DNA of 64,000 bases from an uncultured Flavobacteriales bacterium (GCA_913057205.1 CAJXNO010000007.1:1-64000); one strand, 5' to 3'; shown: positions 6,956 through 63,054, numbered from the stretch's first letter. Notes: generated from the letters alone by a model not told the origin. Numbers and translations: made by a program.

Positions 6956-7978
6956 CTATGGTTGTTGAATGTGCAATATTGCTTGAGGAATGAGACCTGT
7001 TTCGTGGGCTTCAATCCGTTTTAGATTTTGATCGTATACCTCTATCCTACCCTTGCTCAAGTAGTCGAGTACATCGGTTGCAATCACCAAAGCATCATCT
7101 GTGTAAAGGCTGTAGGGCGTTTGCAAATCATGTGCTGACCCATGGATGTATGTGCCATCCCAATCAAACAGCAGCAGAGAGTCTGCCGTTAGCAGCGTAA
7201 TTCCCTGATCGGAAAAACTGAGATCGTTCACTCCTGTGGCGTACTCCATGGTCAAGGTGTAGGAATCATCCGTAAACCGGACTATGCGAAGTCCTGATGC
7301 ACGCAGAACGCCCACATAAATCGCACCATCCCATACCGCTGCTTGGATCGGATCACCACCTAGGTGAAATGCTCCGGTGTTGGTCAAGGTTGCGGTATCG
7401 ATGACGATCAGTGTAGAGTCTGACTTGCCCACCGCATAAAGGCGATCACTTAATAGGTAGAGCTGCTCGGTCCAATCCACAGTTTTAACGCTGTGTTCAA
7501 GCGCACCAGTGCGCCGGTCGATCACGTGTACCGCCCCGCCACCAAAGCTGCTTACTGCCAAGCGGTTTCCATTCAATGCAACGGCATAACGCGGAGAATT
7601 CAATCCATCCAAGACCCGAACTTCCCTGTAGTCTTTGGCGCTGATCACACGGATCAAGCCTGAATTATTCATGACCAAATAAACCAAGGAATCGATTTGA
7701 AGCATACTCTGCAATACGTCGCCAGGACCATAGCCATTCGCACGCTCAAATACTTGGTTATCTACCCTACCGCTATCTGGGTAAAAAGCAGTGAGCGACG
7801 CATTTCCATACTGAAAGTTCCCCTCACACCCAATCAGATATGTGTTCGCGAAAGAAGCAGGTTGCTCAGGGGGCACGGGCGGCTGAATAGGTCCGAACCA
7901 CTCCCCTTCCTTTTGACAACCGACCTGAGCAGTCGTAAAGGACAGCACCATTGCAAAGTTGACGAATGTATGCCTCAT
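6956..7978 (-). CDS. btuG: BtuG-like surface beta-propeller lipoprotein (corrinoid binding)
   Basis: A 340-residue lipoprotein with seven-bladed-propeller-like repeats of the YncE/DUF5074 kind: recurring V-x-V-I-D blades such as GLIRVISAKDYREV, AVHVIDRRTGAL and LIVIDTATLTNTG. The signal peptide ends in a lipobox-like QVGC; the residues after it (QKEGEW) resemble a Bacteroidota surface-export signal. Known: BtuG proteins are surface propeller lipoproteins that bind cobalamin very tightly and pair with BtuB. Here the gene lies directly after a BtuB-like receptor, with ATG at 7978 overlapping the receptor's stop (ATGA, 7975-7978), and downstream of a cobalamin riboswitch, which supports the assignment. 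A longer reading frame extends upstream but would run inside the receptor gene. The symbol is by context, not by search. Confidence 0.75.
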   Translation of the reverse strand: MRHTFVNFAMVLSFTTAQVGCQKEGEWFGPIQPPVPPEQPASFANTYLIGCEGNFQYGNASLTAFYPDSGRVDNQVFERANGYGPGDVLQSMLQIDSLVYLVMNNSGLIRVISAKDYREVRVLDGLNSPRYAVALNGNRLAVSSFGGGAVHVIDRRTGALEHSVKTVDWTEQLYLLSDRLYAVGKSDSTLIVIDTATLTNTGAFHLGGDPIQAAVWDGAIYVGVLRASGLRIVRFTDDSYTLTMEYATGVNDLSFSDQGITLLTADSLLLFDWDGTYIHGSAHDLQTPYSLYTDDALVIATDVLDYLSKGRIEVYDQNLKRIEAHETGLIPQAILHIQQP

Positions 7979-9864
7979 CTTTCGTCCCATGAGATATTCA
8001 ATTGAACGGTAAATGCTCTCCCTGGCATCGGTCTCCAGGGCATTACTTGGTAATTCCAATCGGCCATGTTCTCTATACCGATCGACCATGTCCACCAGAT
8101 ATCCTGCAAGGCATGGTGGTATTGAAACCCGATGTCTTGTAAAAAGAAAGCAGGCATGTAGGCGCCTTCATCATTGGTGATGAATCTACTGCCCATGTAT
8201 TGAGCGCCATAGCGAATGCTGAAGCTGGATCGCTGGTATTCCAACCAAGCATTGGCGCTTTGGGCTGGAATGAAGCTCAATCGTTTCCAGTCTTCATCCG
8301 GATCATTCCGACCAACGGCATTGAGCCGTGTGCCATTCAAGTGTAACCTTAAGGCTTGGTTGTTCCAGCGATAAACCCACTGAACTGAGGCTTCTACACC
8401 TTGTGTCATGGCTTCATTGACATTGGTTGGCGTAAACAGCGTGCCGTCCGGCAGCCAGCGTATGCGCTGGTTGTAGTTCACGTGGAAGAAAGTGATGGCT
8501 GCTTTTTGCTCTCCCCGTTCAAAGCGGAGTCCTCCTTCATAGTTTTCGCCTTGTTCTGGGTTGAGGTTAGGGTTCCCACCTGGAATCCAAAATCGCTCGT
8601 TGATGGTCGGAAAACGCGCCGTTTCTGAGGCGGATGCGAAGAGCGACCAAGGTGCCTTAGCATCATACTTCAAGGTTAAACCGCCGAAAGGCAAGAAAGC
8701 ACGGTTGCCCATGAACTGCTCAAAACGGTATCCTCCTTCTAATTGAATGCGTTCTTTCCAGATTTTGTATCCAGCGGTGATCACCGCACTGATGCCATGA
8801 ACGGCTTGTTCTTGATTATAGTTCTCTGAATTAGCTAAGACGTACTGGTGACGAAGGTTACCCGTGATCGATGGCAGTCGTTGCTTGTTCCAAGTGAACC
8901 GGAGTTGCTTTTGGAACTGCTGGTATCGGTTATCATTATCGATGTTGATGTTCGTATCGATGTAGCGATTGCTGCTGTGCTCGTAAAAGCTGGAAACTGC
9001 GATGGAGCTGTTCGATCCTGCATTCAATGAAGCCTCTACCATGGCCCGATGTACCTCATCTTCCTGGCGCGCAGGTGTCTGGTTGATGTTGATGGGCGCG
9101 GGAATGGAGCGATCCATGCTGTTGTACCAATAAACGGCCTGAACCCGTGTGTTGGCCGTTGGTGCAATGCCGAATTGGGTACTGATGTTGCTTCGTCCAA
9201 ACGCAGCGCCTCCCACGACGCGATCTGGTCGGGTTGGTTCTGCAATATCTACATAAGGAAACCGGTTTTCGCTTTCCGTGAAGCTGCTGGAAAAGTCAAA
9301 TACGGCAGGCATGGCACCAAGCGAAAAAGGTAAATTGGTTTGTACACCGGCAAACGACTGCTGAAATGAACCAATTCCTGAGTAAGCAGTGCTGAATCCA
9401 CGGTCAAATGAGGGCGATTGGTGTAGGGCTATACTCCCTCCTAATCCACCCGTGCTAAAGAGGTTGGAAGCATTTCCTCCCATCAGCTCTACACGGTTGA
9501 ACTGTTGACTTGGAAGGGTGCTGAGGTCCATGGTGCCAAGCATTGGGGAGTTGATTGGGAACCCATTCCAAAGTACTTGCGTGTGGCTGGCGTCGCCACC
9601 TCGGTAGGTGGGTGTTGCGAGCAATCCTGGACCGTAGTTCTTCAAGTGTACCGGCGTTTGTTTGGCCAATATATCGGTAAGTGCATCGCGCTGAAGGGGT
9701 TGAACGCGTCGGAGGCTATCAGACGCCATGGTGTACGATGATGTAAGTCCCTGCTTTGTGCTATCGATTAATTCAAACTCAGGCAAGGATAGTTTCCGTT
9801 GTGCTTCAGCACTGGAAATGCCCAGCAATGCAATGACGACCACTATGGCTACTCTTTTCACCAT
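7975..9864 (-). CDS. btuB: BtuB-like TonB-dependent cobalamin receptor
   Basis: A 629-residue outer-membrane receptor: signal peptide ending SSAEAQ, a plug domain (DILAKQTPVHLKNYGPG, then TPTYRGGDASHTQVLWNG and RVELMGGNAS), then a 22-strand-type barrel with alternating aromatic strands and a C-terminal strand VQLNISWDER. Energised by TonB, it would import corrinoids into the periplasm. The plug's RGGDASHTQVLWNG is typical of the BtuB-type subfamily in Bacteroidota. The ATG at 9864 overlaps the previous stop (TGATG); a TTG one codon upstream is less likely. Translation is therefore coupled to the preceding secreted protein. The riboswitch 2 kb upstream supports cobalamin as ligand. No BtuFCD inner-membrane transporter is seen in this window. 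Confidence 0.88.
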   Translation of the reverse strand: MVKRVAIVVVIALLGISSAEAQRKLSLPEFELIDSTKQGLTSSYTMASDSLRRVQPLQRDALTDILAKQTPVHLKNYGPGLLATPTYRGGDASHTQVLWNGFPINSPMLGTMDLSTLPSQQFNRVELMGGNASNLFSTGGLGGSIALHQSPSFDRGFSTAYSGIGSFQQSFAGVQTNLPFSLGAMPAVFDFSSSFTESENRFPYVDIAEPTRPDRVVGGAAFGRSNISTQFGIAPTANTRVQAVYWYNSMDRSIPAPININQTPARQEDEVHRAMVEASLNAGSNSSIAVSSFYEHSSNRYIDTNINIDNDNRYQQFQKQLRFTWNKQRLPSITGNLRHQYVLANSENYNQEQAVHGISAVITAGYKIWKERIQLEGGYRFEQFMGNRAFLPFGGLTLKYDAKAPWSLFASASETARFPTINERFWIPGGNPNLNPEQGENYEGGLRFERGEQKAAITFFHVNYNQRIRWLPDGTLFTPTNVNEAMTQGVEASVQWVYRWNNQALRLHLNGTRLNAVGRNDPDEDWKRLSFIPAQSANAWLEYQRSSFSIRYGAQYMGSRFITNDEGAYMPAFFLQDIGFQYHHALQDIWWTWSIGIENMADWNYQVMPWRPMPGRAFTVQLNISWDER

Positions 9865-10763
9865 CAAGTACCAGAACGAAGCTTTTGATTACCTGAAATG
9901 ATAACTTGGCCAGGGTTGCTGTGGTTGATGGGTCTTCCAAGGATATCATAGGTCTGGGCTTGTTGTTCCGACGGTTCTCCTAGACGTCGTTCTGTCAATC
10001 CGAGTGGAATCGTACTATTGATCACTCCCACTGCATCCAGGTCAAACCCGCCGCTTTCGAAGTCTGTTAGCCACGGGTCATTGATGATTCGTCCCATTGC
10101 ATCTCTCGAAGCATAGGTTGGATCGATGCTTCCCACCACGTCTATGATCCGAACGTGGGTAACGTTGCTTTTGTCGAGGAGGTTGGTGTCTGGTAATTCA
10201 GCCAAGTCAAACGGTGTCCCAAACGGACCAATGTATTTGCCAGCCAGGTTGTGCACTTCGCTGGCATCAAGGACATCGAAGGTGCCTATTTGGCTTGTGG
10301 TATCGGTTTCAGATTGTGCAGGAAAACGTATGAAGTCTATGCCGTTGGAGCTCACTTCTACGAAGGCCAGTTCCAAGAATGCAGCATCACCTTGTAGAAA
10401 GCCGTTCTCAAACACAGCGAAATCCGCTCCTTCTCCATCGTAGATTGGAGCGCTGAATTGCAAGGTCGCTGTGCCGCCATCGCCCAAACTGATCACCAAG
10501 GGGGCGTCTGCTTGTCCGACCGCATAGGTGAGCGCGCCACCACTGGCGAGCGGACCACTTGGGTCAGTAATGGCTTGTGGACCTCGCTCTACCGAACAAC
10601 TGATTGCCCAATCTCTAAAGCAGCTTGAATCTGCTGGAATTGCGGTACTACCTGATTCTCCAACTTGAGGTGCAAAGCTTCCTTGAGCCAACGATCCGGT
10701 GGATGCCCCCATAAGAAAGGCCATCGTCAAGGATAGGTGAAAACGAATTGCTCTTGTAATCAA
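9864..10763 (-). CDS. Secreted protein of the cobalamin operon, unnamed family
   Basis: A 299-residue secreted protein (signal peptide ending GSLAQ). The mature part is beta-rich: ISLGDGGTATLQFSAPI, ADFAVFENGF, LELAFVEVSSNGIDF, then VTHVRIIDVVGSIDP and FESGGFDLDAVGVI. I recognise this pattern as a surface-protein family of Bacteroidota cobalamin loci but know of no assigned function. The tail (TYDILGRP, then VIISGNQK) looks like a short or degenerate T9SS sorting domain. The start is TTG at 10763, overlapping the previous TGA (TTGA); an ATG at residue 14 would cut the signal peptide. It sits between the DUF4465 gene and the TonB receptor with overlaps on both sides, so it is surely part of the operon and plausibly handles corrinoids at the surface. 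Confidence 0.75.
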   Translation of the reverse strand: MITRAIRFHLSLTMAFLMGASTGSLAQGSFAPQVGESGSTAIPADSSCFRDWAISCSVERGPQAITDPSGPLASGGALTYAVGQADAPLVISLGDGGTATLQFSAPIYDGEGADFAVFENGFLQGDAAFLELAFVEVSSNGIDFIRFPAQSETDTTSQIGTFDVLDASEVHNLAGKYIGPFGTPFDLAELPDTNLLDKSNVTHVRIIDVVGSIDPTYASRDAMGRIINDPWLTDFESGGFDLDAVGVINSTIPLGLTERRLGEPSEQQAQTYDILGRPINHSNPGQVIISGNQKLRSGT

Positions 10764-11704
10764 TGCATCAGCTTTTTAATCATGCGTTCGGTTCCGTTGA
10801 GGTGCTCCAGCAAAAGAAGTTGCTGCTGAGCAGGCAGGGAGATCGTGGATTGACCATCAAGCCGGGTGCTCATGATCAGTCTACCTTGAAGGTCATAGGC
10901 ATTGAGGTGCCCGGTATAAGCCTCCTTGAGTTGAATACCCGCTGGTGTTGACCAGCATTCAAAACCTGTAGCGTTAGCTTCCTCGAGACCTACTCCACCA
11001 CTGATTACATAGCTCAGGTTGTCTAGGGCAAAGAACAGGGGTGTATTGATGCCGAAGGCACCTGTATCGCTGCTGAAGAGTTCCATGGTAAAACTCATGC
11101 CGCCTTGAAATGGCGTTAGGTCTACCGTTTCCCATTCATCCACGATATAATCTTGTGCATTGTCCTCAAATCGGAAATCGGCCAGGTAGTGGTCAATGTC
11201 TACCACGCCGTTGGAGAAACGAATGAAGAAGTAATCTGGGTCATCACCGGTTGGCCCGCCAAACTGCTTAGCGAACATGTCGCCATCTCGCATGCTTTTG
11301 AATGCGTAGGTGGTATTCGTTACATCTATGGAGGTGTACTCAAAGGTGCGGTCCGTGGTGATCTCGAATCCGGTTGAGATGGTAACAGGTCCTTCCGCCA
11401 AGTTGGCAACCAGATAGCCATTGTTCACCTCAGGTGTTGTGCGTACACTGTAGAGGTTCATGAACGAACCATCTACGGTATCCGTGCGGTTACTTACGGC
11501 AAAACCTTCTGCCCAGTAGCCGCCGAAGGAGGTATCGTAGTTGACCGGAAAGAGAAAGTCATCAATATTAAACAAGGTGTCACCATCACTACCGTTGTTG
11601 AAGGTATCAGTAGCTGTCAGTTCGTCATCGAACGTAACGGTCGTTTGTGCTTGCAGTAGCGCACCAAGCACGAGTGCCGTGAGAAGAGTAGTAAGGTTTT
11701 TCAT
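10760..11704 (-). CDS. DUF4465 T9SS-exported surface protein, BtuH-like
   Basis: A 314-residue secreted protein, first gene after the cobalamin riboswitch. Signal peptide (LLQAQ), then a DUF4465-type beta domain: TVTFDDELTATDTFNNG, FLFPVNYDTSFGGYWAEGF, AVSNRTDT, DYFFIRFSNG, VDEWETVDLTPF. The tail (LNAYDLQGRLIMSTRLDG to MIKKLMH) is a T9SS sorting domain. From memory, the BtuH corrinoid-binding surface proteins of Bacteroides belong to this kind of family, and the riboswitch makes the same role likely here; I could not check this. The stop overlaps the TTG start of the next gene. Expression should fall when adenosylcobalamin is plentiful. Confidence 0.8.
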   Translation of the reverse strand: MKNLTTLLTALVLGALLQAQTTVTFDDELTATDTFNNGSDGDTLFNIDDFLFPVNYDTSFGGYWAEGFAVSNRTDTVDGSFMNLYSVRTTPEVNNGYLVANLAEGPVTISTGFEITTDRTFEYTSIDVTNTTYAFKSMRDGDMFAKQFGGPTGDDPDYFFIRFSNGVVDIDHYLADFRFEDNAQDYIVDEWETVDLTPFQGGMSFTMELFSSDTGAFGINTPLFFALDNLSYVISGGVGLEEANATGFECWSTPAGIQLKEAYTGHLNAYDLQGRLIMSTRLDGQSTISLPAQQQLLLLEHLNGTERMIKKLMH

Positions 11705-11825
11705 CGTTTGTGTTTTTAGATGATGTGTAAATGATCAAAAACACGAGAAACGATCAGTCATAAAACGACAGGTGCATGCCGAAGCAAACGCCGATCAGCT
11801 TCTATTCCCGAAAGCTTTTCGCTAT

Positions 11826-12010
11826 GTTTTCTTGGCAGGTCTTCTGACTTTCCCAGCACTTGCTCCTTCCCGACCTATGTCAGTGGAGTATTGCAAGCGC
11901 CATGATCGCGTAAGCGAACAGGATTACAGCTGCGGGTACAGTTCCGGAATGGCCTTTCGACTTCACCGGATTCCCTTTTCATTCCAGACGAGCTGGAAAC
12001 CAAAAAAGCA
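11826..12010 (-). ncRNA. Cobalamin riboswitch
   Basis: Read on the minus strand, the hallmark blocks appear in order: GGGAATCCGGTGAAG, then CCGGAACTGTACCCGCAGCTGTAA, CCACTG, GGGAAGGAGCAAG and the B12-box-like AGTCAGAAGACCTGCC. The P1 stem pairs TTTTTTGG at the 5' end with CCAAGAAAA at the 3' end. It ends about 120 bases before the DUF4465 start, so it regulates the surface locus at 6956-11704. Most of the 329-base gap between genes (11705-12033) is this element plus its leader. Confidence 0.96.
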
Positions 12011-12013
12011 AGG

Positions 12014-12021
12014 CAAATGTA
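12014..12021 (-). promoter_or_regulatory. -7 box of the cobalamin operon
   Basis: Minus-strand TACATTTG matches TAnnTTTG and lies immediately upstream of the riboswitch 5' end, as expected for a transcript that starts at about 12007. It is 12 bases past the stop of the upstream lipoprotein gene, so read-through from that gene is also possible. Confidence 0.6.
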
Positions 12022-29565: not shown

Positions 29566-31929
29566 TTATCGAATGATGCTGATCTTGGCATATTCAGATG
29601 CACCTTCCTCAGAACGTACCTCCAACATATAATAACCAGCATTCAAATCATTAACATCAAGGTTGATGCGATCATTGTTGAAACGATCCTGCATCACTAC
29701 TGTGCCATCGATAGACATCAAGATGATGCTTCCCTGATCAAACGATGGCTGCACATTGATCTGTCCGTTCATCACTGGATTTGGGAACACATTCAAGGCG
29801 TCAGAAGTAACTTCTTCATCAACGTTTAGCGGTGTGCCAGGCAATTCAACCAAGTCACCTCCAGCAGCTACTGCTACCCAAAGACCGAAGGATGCTCCAT
29901 CTGAGTTTTGGCTTGGATCAAGAAATCCAGATGCTACTACGGTGATGGCTTCTCCTGCAAACCCTAGGGTTTGCAATGGAGCTTGGTACTGAGCCAACAT
30001 GGTGGTATTGGTCTCATCCTTCAACTCCAAGGTGTAATCTGTATTGGCCAATTCCAAGTAACCTTGGAAATCTTCGTAAGCGAGGTTGTCTACAATGGTT
30101 CCAGCACCAACCAATACTTCGTTCACATCAACTACAGGAGCGTCGGTTGCACCGTGGTGTACCAGGACGTCTGTGTTGTTGGCATCGGTAGCGGCTTCGC
30201 GCGCCATCCCGTATACGGATAAGCCGAAGCTTTCAGTGATTACATAACCAGATGCACTCACATTGCCATGCGCAACGGCGATGTAAGTTTCACCGTTCAT
30301 CAACGTAACCGGAATGGTGGCGATCGCATCGTTCACATCGTTACTGTTGCTGGGTGCTACAGCGATCTCTGCTTCTACGTTTGCCGGAGCATCGATGAAG
30401 CTTGTTGCCGTGCGGAAAGCGAAATCATCGATCAAGAGTCCGCCATTCAAGTAAACATCTACTACTGAAGCGGCCATATCTGCTGAGTTATGGATCACTT
30501 GCAAACGCGCTGTAGATGCTGGCAGTTCAACCAAGGCTCCTCCAGTTGGAAGTGCAACCCACAGACCGAATGCTGGTCCGTTTGAGTTCTGACTCGGATC
30601 TACGAATCCAGAAGCTACTACTACAAGGGCTTCATCTTCTAAACCAAGGCTTGACAATGGTGCATTGTAAGAAAACGCATTATCGCCGGTCTGCAGTGCA
30701 ATGTCAAGCACATAGTCATCGGTTGGAAGCTCTAAATAACCTTGGAAATCACCGTATGCAAGGTCATCAACGATTGTTCCTGCACCTACCCCAGACTCAA
30801 CAACGTCTACAACAGGTGCGTCAGTAGAGCCGTGGAATACCAGAACATCCGTGTTGCCAGTTGTATCAGCTGCCTCTCGTCCCATATCATAAACGTCTAA
30901 GCTAAAAGCAGTTGCTGGTGTGTAACCCATTGGGCTGATGATTCCATTTGCAATTGCTACGTAGGTATCGCGTGCATCTAATACAACAGGTACAGTCGCT
31001 ACCGCTTGTGAAGCACTTGTACTGTTAGCAGGGGCTACAGCGATTTCATTAGTAATGTTTGCTGGAGCATCAATAAAAGCTGATGCTGTACGGAAGGAGA
31101 AACTATCAAGTAAGATCTCGCCATTCAAATAAATGTCAACAGCAGCTGCTAACGCATCTGCAGAGTTGTGAATGACTTGAAGGCGTGCAGTAGCCTGTGG
31201 AAGTGGAATGAAATCACCACCTGAGGGTAATACAGCGAAAAGTCCGAAAGCATCACCACCACTGTTCACCGTTGGATCTAAGAAGCCTGACGCCAAAACT
31301 GTGATAGCACTATCCTCGAGACCAAGTGTTTGAAGAGGAGCCTCATATGCTGCCACTACATCTCCATTCAAAGTTTCTACGTTGATTACATAATCGTTTG
31401 TCGGTAACTCAACGTAACCAGAGAACTCATTGTAGCTTATGTTACTCACTGCTGTAGTTGACAACACTTCTGTTTCTACAACATTTACTGCAGGGGCATC
31501 TGTTACTCCATGCACCACCAGTAGGTCTGTGTTTCCAGCTGTACCAGCCTCTTCACGACCAAGTGTGTAAACCGCCAAATCGAATGGCGTTGCAGGACTA
31601 TAGCCTGTAGGGCTGACGATACCTTGTGCAACAATAATGTAGGTTTCATTGTCAGCCAGTGTGTATTGAAAGTTCGCAATGGTGTCATTTACTGACGAAC
31701 TGTTTCCAGGTGCAATACCAACGTTCAATAACGCATTAGCAGGGACTGACTGAAATGGACTTGCCGTTTTATAGTCGACATCATCCAAGAACATGGCTCC
31801 ATTCACATAAACGTCAACTGTTGCAGCAGCTGCATCAGGACTGTTGTGGATGACTTGAACCCGAGCTGTTTGCGCGAGCACTCCTAGCGTCATCAGTGAA
31901 AGACTAAAGAGTAAACCTAACTTTTTCAT
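29566..31929 (-). CDS. T9SS-exported protein with three DUF4397 repeats
   Basis: A 787-residue secreted protein (signal peptide LGVLAQ). Three tandem units of 225-226 residues start at TARVQVIHNSPD, TARLQVIHNSADA and TARLQVIHNSADM (DNA about 31870, 31192, 30517). Each has a first half V-x-VY-x-NG and a second half opening L-V-x-HG-x-TDAP-x-V and closing FGL-x-VALP-x-GG. The T9SS sorting domain starts near LNVFPNPVMNGQINVQP and ends YAKISIIR. DUF4397 modules are beta-rich and of unknown function; a surface or adhesive role is plausible. The units are close enough to recombine. It is divergent from the sigma factor gene. Confidence 0.87.
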   Translation of the reverse strand: MKKLGLLFSLSLMTLGVLAQTARVQVIHNSPDAAAATVDVYVNGAMFLDDVDYKTASPFQSVPANALLNVGIAPGNSSSVNDTIANFQYTLADNETYIIVAQGIVSPTGYSPATPFDLAVYTLGREEAGTAGNTDLLVVHGVTDAPAVNVVETEVLSTTAVSNISYNEFSGYVELPTNDYVINVETLNGDVVAAYEAPLQTLGLEDSAITVLASGFLDPTVNSGGDAFGLFAVLPSGGDFIPLPQATARLQVIHNSADALAAAVDIYLNGEILLDSFSFRTASAFIDAPANITNEIAVAPANSTSASQAVATVPVVLDARDTYVAIANGIISPMGYTPATAFSLDVYDMGREAADTTGNTDVLVFHGSTDAPVVDVVESGVGAGTIVDDLAYGDFQGYLELPTDDYVLDIALQTGDNAFSYNAPLSSLGLEDEALVVVASGFVDPSQNSNGPAFGLWVALPTGGALVELPASTARLQVIHNSADMAASVVDVYLNGGLLIDDFAFRTATSFIDAPANVEAEIAVAPSNSNDVNDAIATIPVTLMNGETYIAVAHGNVSASGYVITESFGLSVYGMAREAATDANNTDVLVHHGATDAPVVDVNEVLVGAGTIVDNLAYEDFQGYLELANTDYTLELKDETNTTMLAQYQAPLQTLGFAGEAITVVASGFLDPSQNSDGASFGLWVAVAAGGDLVELPGTPLNVDEEVTSDALNVFPNPVMNGQINVQPSFDQGSIILMSIDGTVVMQDRFNNDRINLDVNDLNAGYYMLEVRSEEGASEYAKISIIR

Positions 31930-34700: not shown

Positions 34701-36463
34701 ATGAAAAGAACGATTACCCTTTCTGTGCTAGCGAGCATGTTTTATGCAACTGTATACGCCCAGTGCACCGTCCCTCTATCCTTTTCCAACCTTGACATCA
34801 ACTACACGGATGCCTTCCTCAAGTAAGGCGGCCATGTCTGGAGGGATTTCTCCCGTGCCCGATATGAATCGCTGGCTACCTCGGGCAAGAGTCCGGTATT
34901 CAGCGGGGCAATTTGGGTGGTGCACTGCATGAAGAAGAACAGCTTCATTTGGCTGGAACCCTTTACCGGCAATCTGGAAACGACTATTACGCAGGTCTCA
35001 TCACAGGTGATTCGGTTCTTACCGCTGCTCATTGCGATGCATGGGATTGGCATTGGAAGGTAAGCCAAGCAGGCATTGAATTCTTCACCAATGGCGGTGC
35101 GCCTTCTGAAGCCATCAGAACGTGGCCAGCAAAAGGCAATCTAGAAACGCCTTCTCCGTTAACCGAAGCGCTTGCCCCATTCGTAGATGTGAATGCTGAT
35201 GGTGTTTACATGCATACGGATGGTGATTATCCACTTATAAAAGGCGATCAAGCCGTATTCTGGGTCTTCAATGACATCGGAAACCTTCATACTGAAACAG
35301 GAGGCTTGGCTCTTGGCTTTGAGTTCCATGCAATGGCCTATGCTTACGCTATTGATGGTACAGACGTGGACTATGCAACCTACTACCAGTATACCATGGT
35401 CAATAAAAGCGAACACGACTACCATGACCTCTACCTCGGACATTTTCTCGACATCGACCTTGGAAACGGTGCTGACGACCACATCGGTGTTGACGTGGCT
35501 CGAAAAACGGTTTTTGGCTATAACGGGGATGACTTCGATGAAGGTTTGACCAGATATGGGAACAATATTCCTATGGTGGGTGTACGTGTGAATCGGGCTC
35601 CCGATGACGCGACTATGCATGCAGCACACTACTTCGAGTCTTCAACCATCAACAACCATCGCTTGCCAAGCATTGCCATCGAATACTACAATTACCTCAG
35701 CGGACTCAACCCAGATGGATCAACCAAGACCGATTTAAACGGGGATCCAACCACGTATGTGCTCGACGGTGCAAACTTGGCGTCTCCTTCGATGTGTGCA
35801 GATGGCTTCCTTCCTGCCGATTACCGCGCATTACAGTCTTATGGACCGTATGACTTTGAACGCTCTCAGTCCATGGGCATCACCTACTCTGTGGTCTTGG
35901 ACTTTGACTCTGCTTTTCAAGGGCAGGGTTGTCCGGATTACGTACCCTTCGGTAACGCGGCAGATGTAGTGGATAGCCGCTATCAGTTTACCCGATGCGA
36001 TGACTTTGCCGTAGATGTGACCGCTGATATACAAGATGCCTCTCTCGATCAGGCTGGTTGGATCAACCTCGTTAGCTTGGGTGTAGAGGGCGTTTATACC
36101 TATGACTGGTCCAACGGTGCCTCTACCCGAAACATTGACGGCATCAGTGGTGGCCCATACACCGTCACCATTACGAACGCAGATGGATGTACCCATACGG
36201 AGAGTTTTGAAGTACTGGATGGTCCCGGTGGATTGAATGAGTTCAATACCTCAATGATTGAGCTCTTCCCTAATCCCACCAACGGTTTATTAGCTGTGAA
36301 AGGATTGGAAGTAGCCCGACCTTACACCATCAGCAACCTACTTGGTGCTGTGGTATCCAGCGGAAACGTAAAAAGCTCGTTGGATGTGCATTCCTTGCCT
36401 TCTGGCATCTATATTTTGAAAGTAGATGGTCATGCTCCGATGAAGTTTCAAAAGATCGATTAG
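34701..36463 (+). pseudogene. T9SS-exported surface protein, broken by a stop and a frameshift
   Basis: The first 41 residues (ATG 34701, signal peptide, then SFSNLDINYTDAFLK) end at TAA 34824-34826. The same frame continues with GGHVWRDFSRARYES and SGAIWV, which belongs to the same family. The frame then changes by -1 near 34912-34920 (a GGG-to-GG contraction in TTTGGGTGGTGC would explain it), after which GALHEEEQLHLAGTLYRQSGND continues to a T9SS sorting domain ending KFQKID at 36463. Family members run on in one piece through the pattern RYEVP...GALWIGG...LHVAAQTYRQSG. Two lesions in about 90 bases mean a pseudogene or sequencing errors. A SprB-like repeat (TVTITNADGCTHTESFEV) lies before the sorting domain. 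Confidence 0.8.
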
Positions 36464-61605: not shown

Positions 61606-63054
61606 TTATTGCTTGATCAAGCGCTTCATTATTCCTTTTCCTGACTGAAGAAGTGACACAAAGTACATTCCTTCCGCCTGCTCGCTCAGATCGATCTTGG
61701 TAAGGATATAACCATCGGTGTTTGCTTGAACTTCCTTCTCCATGACCTTACCGCCTTGGGCGTCGAACACTTGAAGTTTGACGGGGTCGTTGCTTTCAAG
61801 CTCGAGGTTCATCATGAACACCCCGCTGCTTGGATTCGGTCCAATCGTAAGATCGATCGGTTCTAAAGCGTTGGTTCGATCCAGTTCTTCCTCACTCTGT
61901 TGGCTGATGCGATCGATTTCTTCTTCATTCACCGCACCGATTCGAACCTCATAGCGGAAGCTCTTTTCCTCTTCAAATGGGATTTCCTTTGGGAACGCAG
62001 CCAAGGTGGTGGAAACCTGTTCAACTTGCTCACCTCTTAGGTAGCGAACGGTGATCTCTTCTCCAGCCTTTCGCTTCGATAGGCTGGCTATAAGCGCCTG
62101 GATATCTTCGATTGCGTCCTCATCAAGTTCCGTGATGATGTCTCCCTCTTGAAGACCGGCCTCTGCTGCTGGGGTAGCATCAATCACCTTAATGATCTTT
62201 ACACCTTGGTCAACGGTTTCACCTTCGATACCTAGGAAGCCTCCTGAACATTCCGCTCGAAGGCCTTTTGGATGTTTTGTCGAATGGTACATGAACGGAC
62301 GTTGACCTTGGGGTGCATGCGGAGGAAAGACGTAGCTGTGATCTCCATCTTCACCCTGCCATTCCATATGGATCTGGCGCCGACGATCGGTGGTGGAACC
62401 GAGAATCACCTCTTGCTTTTGAAGCTTTCCGTCTCGGTAGACCTCTAACTTCAATTTGTCCTTTGGTGCATGCGAACGGATCGCGTTTGCGAGCTCGTCA
62501 AAGTTGCCTACTTCCTGTCCATCGATGGATGTGATGATCATTCCGCGCTGTAGACCGATGGCTTCTGCAGCACTACCAGGCACTACCCTTCTGATCCGCA
62601 CGCCCTTCTTTAGTTTGGTATTGGCTTTTTCGATCTCGTTCAAAGCGGTTCCTTCTACCCCGAGGAAGGCACGCGCTTCACCACTTCCTTGCTGATAATG
62701 AAAGCGTGGAATGGCCCTGATGGTTGATTGGAAATCGGGTAGATCGAGGTCATTCAGCTCTTTTTGGATGATGATCTCGATATCTGCATCATCGATGTCT
62801 TTCATGGCTTTCTGGATGCTGAGTTCCATTTCTTCCAGCATGGATGCTAGCTCTTTGTTCCAATGATCTACGTCAAGTTCGATCTCTTGTACGGAGGTAG
62901 TGGTCTCACCATCTTCGGTGACCTCTACTTCTACTTTTACTCTGGCGGGTTTATCGTTGCGTTCTGTGTCATCGTTCTGAGCGTTAGCGATGGCCACGAG
63001 GCCAAGGCTTAAGAACGAAAAGAAGAGGCATTCAAGGAGTACTTTCTTTTTCAT
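61606..63054 (-). CDS. T9SS-exported protein with two PDZ domains
   Basis: A 482-residue secreted protein (signal peptide AIANAQ). After a charged helical region (about 30-110) come two PDZ domains: FLGVEGTALNE to GVRIRRVVPGSAAEAIGLQRGMIITSIDGQEVGNFDEL, and GFLGIEGETVDQGVKIIKVIDATPAAEAGLQEGDIITELDEDAIEDI. It ends in a T9SS sorting domain (LTIGPNPSSGVFMMNLELE to GIMKRLIKQ). There is no protease domain, so it may bind peptide ends or scaffold other surface proteins. Confidence 0.88.
   Translation of the reverse strand: MKKKVLLECLFFSFLSLGLVAIANAQNDDTERNDKPARVKVEVEVTEDGETTTSVQEIELDVDHWNKELASMLEEMELSIQKAMKDIDDADIEIIIQKELNDLDLPDFQSTIRAIPRFHYQQGSGEARAFLGVEGTALNEIEKANTKLKKGVRIRRVVPGSAAEAIGLQRGMIITSIDGQEVGNFDELANAIRSHAPKDKLKLEVYRDGKLQKQEVILGSTTDRRRQIHMEWQGEDGDHSYVFPPHAPQGQRPFMYHSTKHPKGLRAECSGGFLGIEGETVDQGVKIIKVIDATPAAEAGLQEGDIITELDEDAIEDIQALIASLSKRKAGEEITVRYLRGEQVEQVSTTLAAFPKEIPFEEEKSFRYEVRIGAVNEEEIDRISQQSEEELDRTNALEPIDLTIGPNPSSGVFMMNLELESNDPVKLQVFDAQGGKVMEKEVQANTDGYILTKIDLSEQAEGMYFVSLLQSGKGIMKRLIKQ

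Follow-up and report, generated by a model that had tools for sequence, protein, structure and literature searches.

BtuH has been described in gut Bacteroidetes as a protein domain with a solved B12-bound structure (PDB 7biz; PMC8941943), and was reported to be without known structural homologs. Both BtuH and BtuJ bind at the surface with high affinity, and in BtuBG systems BtuG is the lid that loads BtuB (PMC10404256; PMC12751083). BtuJ is the family otherwise known as DUF4465 (IPR027828; PMC12751083; PMC13398666), and B12 binding has been demonstrated for eight diverse DUF4465 members (PMC13398666).

Here, we analyzed a 64,000-nucleotide stretch of DNA (the window) from an uncultured Flavobacteriales bacterium (GCA_913057205.1, CAJXNO010000007.1:1-64000), which contains a riboswitch-headed operon that resembles these loci. 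One of its products is a secreted protein of 299 residues, which we call X. In the open-licence literature on the type IX secretion system (T9SS) and cobalamin, and on BtuH outside the gut, we found no paper describing X. The features of the operon are as follows:

11817-12019, minus strand: cobalamin riboswitch aptamer (RF00174, 105 bits, E 3e-25)
11703-11816, minus strand: likely expression platform, comprising a post-aptamer hairpin and a hairpin over the first start codon (folded leader)
10760-11704, minus strand: DUF4465 (BtuJ-family) secreted protein, 314 amino acids (PF14717, 120 bits)
9864-10763, minus strand: X, secreted BtuH-like protein, 299 amino acids, TTG start (fold match to 7biz/8blw; bridging profiles)
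10014-10688, minus strand: X core domain, residues 26-250, predicted jelly roll (AlphaFold pLDDT 93.8, pTM 0.92)
10401-10412, minus strand: FENG motif of X, residues 118-121 (Asn120 aligned to BtuH2 Asn399)
9867-10013, minus strand: C-terminal tail of X, residues 251-299, degenerate T9SS-like (TIGR04183 in relatives only)
7975-9864, minus strand: BtuB-like TonB-dependent receptor (plug and barrel; ATG start at 9864, stop at 7975)
6956-7978, minus strand: BtuG-like β-propeller lipoprotein (similar to BtuG chains; ATGA overlap)

Riboswitch and gene order

The original prediction placed a cobalamin riboswitch at the head of four same-strand genes, and this is what we find. The riboswitch covers positions 1-189 of the RF00174 model, its full length, and scores well above the gathering score of 31.5 bits; it is the single cobalamin riboswitch found in the host genome (2.8 Mb, 99.9% complete). 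It is followed on the minus strand by the genes for DUF4465, X, the BtuB-like receptor, and the BtuG-like propeller lipoprotein. The predicted stop/start overlaps can all be read from the sequence: TTGA at 10760-10763 (DUF4465 stop and X start), TGATG at 9862-9866 (X stop and BtuB-like start), and ATGA at 7975-7978 (BtuB-like stop and BtuG-like start). The equal amounts of all four products that were originally suggested would follow only from these overlaps, and B. theta makes the proteins of comparable loci in very different quantities (PMC10404256). The operon has no BtuFCD genes, as had also been noted, and a single Peripla_BP_2 protein is encoded on a different contig.

The leader between the aptamer and the first gene (11703-11816, minus strand), together with the leaders of relatives L069-L095, looks like a translational expression platform. 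In the folded window leader, the hairpin over the start codon is no more stable than those of shuffled sequences (z −0.9). A hairpin with a CGGGA-type loop follows the aptamer in most of the L069-L095 leaders, and in many relatives the first start codon lies inside a further hairpin, with a 5′ arm capable of pairing with that loop, as exemplified by AUCCCUAA...UUAGGAUG in L080, L082, L088, and L091.

Neighboring genes

The product of the first gene matches PF14717 far above its curated cut-off (25 bits), and its best matches among solved structures are DUF4465 relatives (best E 1.3e-9). It had been labeled BtuH-like, which is incorrect: DUF4465 is the BtuJ family, and BtuH is a separate domain with its own structure. 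Elsewhere, two DUF4465 domains are encoded in a single open frame (G001, G002, and G003, at L085, L078, and L084, respectively).

The BtuB-like and BtuG-like labels, by contrast, hold. The receptor scores 77 bits against the TIGR01779 equivalog, far under the cut-off of 599.7, yet among solved structures it comes nearest to BtuB chains from Bacteroides (E 8e-38), and we therefore call it BtuB-like. Similarly, the propeller protein is closest to BtuG chains (8p97_B, E 1.7e-21), and the likely start of its gene is the ATG at 7978, rather than the GTG at 8095.

Fold of X and its relationship to BtuH

X has no match in Pfam, PF14717 included, which separates it from the first gene product. The only curated family to register is NF033170 (LIC_13355 family lipoprotein), which 27 of 32 X relatives match weakly, yet far under its curated cut-off; X itself reaches 17.4 bits, against a cut-off of 120, over the stretch around VFENGF. 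A search of solved structures with the single sequence gave nothing credible, and weak matches to the phenazine-biosynthesis protein PhzF and to a ubiquitin-conjugating enzyme were discarded. We collected relatives from public genomes, and the resulting alignment of 32 sequences has several strongly conserved motifs: SLGDGG, DFAVFENG, LELAFVEVSSDG, HNLAGKYI..GTPFDL, INDPWPT, and GGFDLDAVG.

AlphaFold gave a pLDDT of 84.7 for the whole protein, and both this model and the confident core model were compared with solved structures. The top match is B12-bound BtuH2 (7biz; Z 13.1 over 159 residues at 3.4 Å by VIA-align), followed by the H-domain of BtuG1 (8blw_B), which ranks second with Z 11.8-11.9 in the whole-protein and core models; the ranking is identical for the two models. 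The rows below are PAPP-A and CBM32 jelly rolls with Z of at most 10.8 in both models (10.6 for the core model), and the BtuH fold is near common carbohydrate-binding jelly rolls. Foldseek places 8blw_B on top. The next matches include AlyQ, and since BtuH2 was described by its authors as modestly like AlyQ (PMC8941943), the pattern is coherent. Judged from the model, the fold of X is that of the BtuH C-terminal domain.

Sequence profiles lead to the same relatives. Because a profile that included the C-terminal tail matched mainly T9SS tails, which swamped our first survey of the phylum, we used a tail-free profile of the X core (A2) alongside a BtuH profile (A3). The core profile gave weak matches in three genomes (E 2e-4 to 4e-4), all of them to BtuH proteins: one matches 8blw_B at 1e-67 and 7biz at 2e-45, and the remaining two share 76-79% identity with it across the domain. 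A direct comparison of the X and BtuH profiles is borderline (P 4e-5, 42 columns, probability 70%). A family of distant X proteins bridges the two, with E 8e-28 to X and P 8e-9 to BtuH over 104 columns that include the V.EY.PAPGQ segment, and its profile matches genuine BtuH proteins at 5e-8 and 1e-7. Against the BtuH profile, A2 scores 40.7 and the distant-X profile 67.7, compared with 29.5 and 34.7, respectively, for the best of 60 column shuffles, and with 14-17 for the other families of the operon. Pairwise BLAST between distant X and BtuH is insignificant (E 0.03), so that the link runs through profiles and folds only. Between the X core and DUF4465 profiles there is no match (score 19); a distant-X match to DUF4465 (score 73.9) was rejected as a sign of kinship, because it is confined to the C-terminal tails. 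The original prediction had no function to assign to X. X is not without a known relative, however: its fold and the bridging profiles group it with the B12-binding domain of BtuH, and we consider it very probable that the two are homologous.

Distribution of X and linkage to B12 loci

X is present in 30 of the 35 genomes of the window's taxonomic family, and in 28 of these 30 a same-strand cobalamin riboswitch lies upstream at a distance of 6 kb or less. At L033, where no riboswitch was found, the contig ends just upstream of X and runs on into BtuB and BtuG; in G004 (L086, 4385-7717, minus strand), X immediately precedes CobT, CobS, and a histidine phosphatase, with no riboswitch nearby. The latter three neighbors belong to nucleotide-loop assembly. 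Among the public X loci with enough upstream sequence, 26 of 32 have a riboswitch upstream.

In an even draw of the phylum, the X core was matched in 48 of 392 genomes. Leaving out the window's own genome, 27 of the 47 distant genomes show a riboswitch upstream of X, at a distance of up to 6 kb, and another 10 carry BtuB and/or BtuG next to X without one, so that 37 of the 42 matches examined stand beside a cobalamin riboswitch and/or BtuB/BtuG, and five have no B12 context. X is thus a family of B12 loci across Bacteroidota, found mostly beside B12 uptake genes. The original prediction would have been refuted by a family occurring mostly outside cobalamin operons, and these counts do not refute it. 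The gene orders seen (J-X-B-G, J-X-G-B, B-G-X, B-X-G, and X-B-G, where J, B, and G denote the three Btu genes) shuffle freely, as expected of a module under common selection.

X is also found fused to DUF4465 (L067) and behind DUF4430 (L055, L057, and L060; at L057 the DUF4430 score is under the curated cut-off). DUF4430 we take to be a transcobalamin-C-terminal-like domain, and fusions of either sort are possible two-site corrinoid binders. Where DUF4465 is missing, a different protein with a sorting tail often precedes X; at six such loci (L079, L080, L082, L088, L091, and L036), this is a secreted protein of ~430-520 amino acids with a T9SS-like tail, and the one that fills the DUF4465 slot at L036 is propeller-like. 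In the f26 family (L151, L152, L168, L169, and L171-L173), BtuB, X, and BtuG occur together with no riboswitch within 6 kb upstream of X, and their control probably differs.

Export of X

The signal peptide of X, MITRAIRFHLSLTMAFLMGASTGSLAQG, has no cysteine and so no lipobox cysteine, which sets X apart from surface lipoproteins such as B. theta BtuH1 and BtuH2. Instead, 25 of 32 X relatives carry the T9SS sorting domain TIGR04183 at their C-terminus. For these two reasons, we file X as a relative of BtuH and not as BtuH itself. The tail of the window X is shortened, as it is throughout its genus, and has no match to the TIGR04183/PF18962 sorting domain; with so short a tail scoring below detection, its export route is uncertain. 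The host encodes the T9SS protein SprA (2489 bits), and we infer that the window X still uses this system. T9SS sorting domains are present on three other window proteins (29566-31929, 34913-36463, and 61606-63054), one of which has six DUF4397 stretches and another PDZ domains.

Predicted ligand site

BtuH2 contacts cobalamin through Gln333, Asn399, Phe401, His476, Tyr510, Trp511, Trp577, and Leu578, of which Asn399 is the phosphate contact (PMC8941943). In a joint alignment of 68 sequences, the equivalent of Asn399 is Asn in all 32 X, 26 distant X, and 10 BtuH sequences, and the equivalent of Phe401 is kept in 29 of 32 X sequences and in most of the joint alignment. Gln333 is unmatched in X, the segments that hold the corrin contacts His476, Tyr510, Trp511, and Trp577 are either absent from X or not alignable, and Leu578 could likewise not be aligned. 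Because these contacts are missing or unaligned, the pocket of X may differ from that of BtuH2. The Asn399 equivalent may also have been kept for a metal site instead of a ligand. We nevertheless think it probable that X binds a corrinoid. A bolder and rather doubtful proposal is that the X family is a separate branch of the BtuH superfamily, which would grip corrinoids from the nucleotide-loop/phosphate side with its own conserved motifs HNLAGKYI..YGTPFDL and INDPWPT..GGFDLDAVG standing in for the aromatic corrin contacts, and hence recognize a different set of corrinoids, or else be released by the T9SS as a soluble capture protein that cells share.

Proposed mechanism and alternative explanations

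By analogy with the described systems, X probably works like BtuH. When intracellular corrinoid is low, the riboswitch would permit a single message for four envelope proteins, of which BtuJ and X would be exported, probably by the T9SS. BtuJ and X, the latter as a divergent BtuH-type jelly roll, would then trap scarce corrinoids on the cell surface and, as in BtuBG systems, might pass them to the BtuG lid, which would load BtuB for TonB-driven import. We put the probability that X captures surface corrinoid and, with BtuJ, hands it over to BtuG/BtuB at roughly two in three. The earlier view of the locus as a riboswitch-controlled surface-capture operon, in which X is a candidate for binding or relaying corrinoids, is supported.

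The most serious competitor, although we consider it unlikely, is that X is a non-binding accessory protein like BtuL, which organizes display on the surface or on vesicles, or docks BtuJ onto BtuG/BtuB. The conserved operon products BtuL and BtuK2 failed to bind B12 (PMC12751083), and the corrin-side contact residues of BtuH are not found in X; on the other hand, X shares its fold and the phosphate-side Asn with the binder BtuH. That X is BtuL itself was likewise not supported by the one BtuL-slot protein compared, that of a Bacteroides-like operon (L187, 8725-10911; 728 amino acids): it is unmatched by either X profile, whereas the distant-X profile does pick up most of the genuine BtuH proteins there.

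The fold comparison raises a further reading, in which X is a CBM32-like module whose binding to carbohydrate or another polymer ties the capture proteins to particles or to glycans on the surface of the cell itself. Most of the rows under BtuH are indeed occupied by CBM32 and other lectin jelly rolls. However, BtuH2 and the BtuG1 H-domain beat every lectin by more than one Z unit with ~25-40 more residues aligned, sequence bridging points to BtuH, the family is located in B12 loci, and BtuH2 has itself been reported to resemble AlyQ (PMC8941943), so that lectin matches come with the fold; we regard this reading as improbable. That X lies in the operon by chance, or has a generic secreted role with no link to B12, would agree with the relatives that have no B12 gene nearby (such as L037, L039, L053, and L055, and G057, G051, and G321). 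It is nonetheless hardly credible, and for the family as a whole already refuted: B12 linkage is found in most loci across the phylum, where by our own estimate a random gene would be expected to show it in ~0.1% of cases at 1-2 riboswitches per genome, and X is fused to B12-related domains.

Corrinoid capture by a BtuH relative is our preferred reading, and the results suggest that a large environmental branch of the BtuH domain extends across Bacteroidota, tied to B12 uptake and for the most part bearing a T9SS signal. If true, this would assign a function to a family that lacks annotation, would mean that scavenging B12 at the surface with several different binders is not peculiar to the gut, and would supply testable natural variants in which to study how a single jelly roll acquires its cobamide specificity.

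Comparison with known systems

The best fold matches of X, BtuH2 (BT_1956, 7biz) and the H-domain of BtuG1, or BtuGH (BT_1490, 8blw), with which it shares remote profile homology, also resemble it in context. Like X, they belong to riboswitch-controlled B12 loci next to BtuJ, BtuG, and BtuB, and they have the phosphate-side Asn and the Phe. BtuH is fused to DUF4465 at L186, as X is at L067; the L186 fusion (8332-10137, plus strand; 601 residues) comes from a gut-type genome. In contrast to BtuH2 and BtuG1, X is shorter, with neither a PKD nor a propeller domain at its N-terminus and without a lipobox cysteine. The loops that bear the corrin contacts are absent or rearranged in X, and most of its relatives have a T9SS tail in place of the lipid anchor.

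At the level of the locus, B. theta cobamide locus 2 (J2-H2-L-G2-B2-F-C-D) follows the same logic of riboswitch, binders, lid, and barrel. The window operon differs from it in having neither BtuL nor BtuFCD, and its binders seem to be secreted proteins of the T9SS type, not lipoproteins. In the Bacteroides-like operon at L187 (J-H-L-G-B), BtuH occupies the slot that is held by X in the window. The operon is a variant of the BtuH kind, and not a new mechanism.
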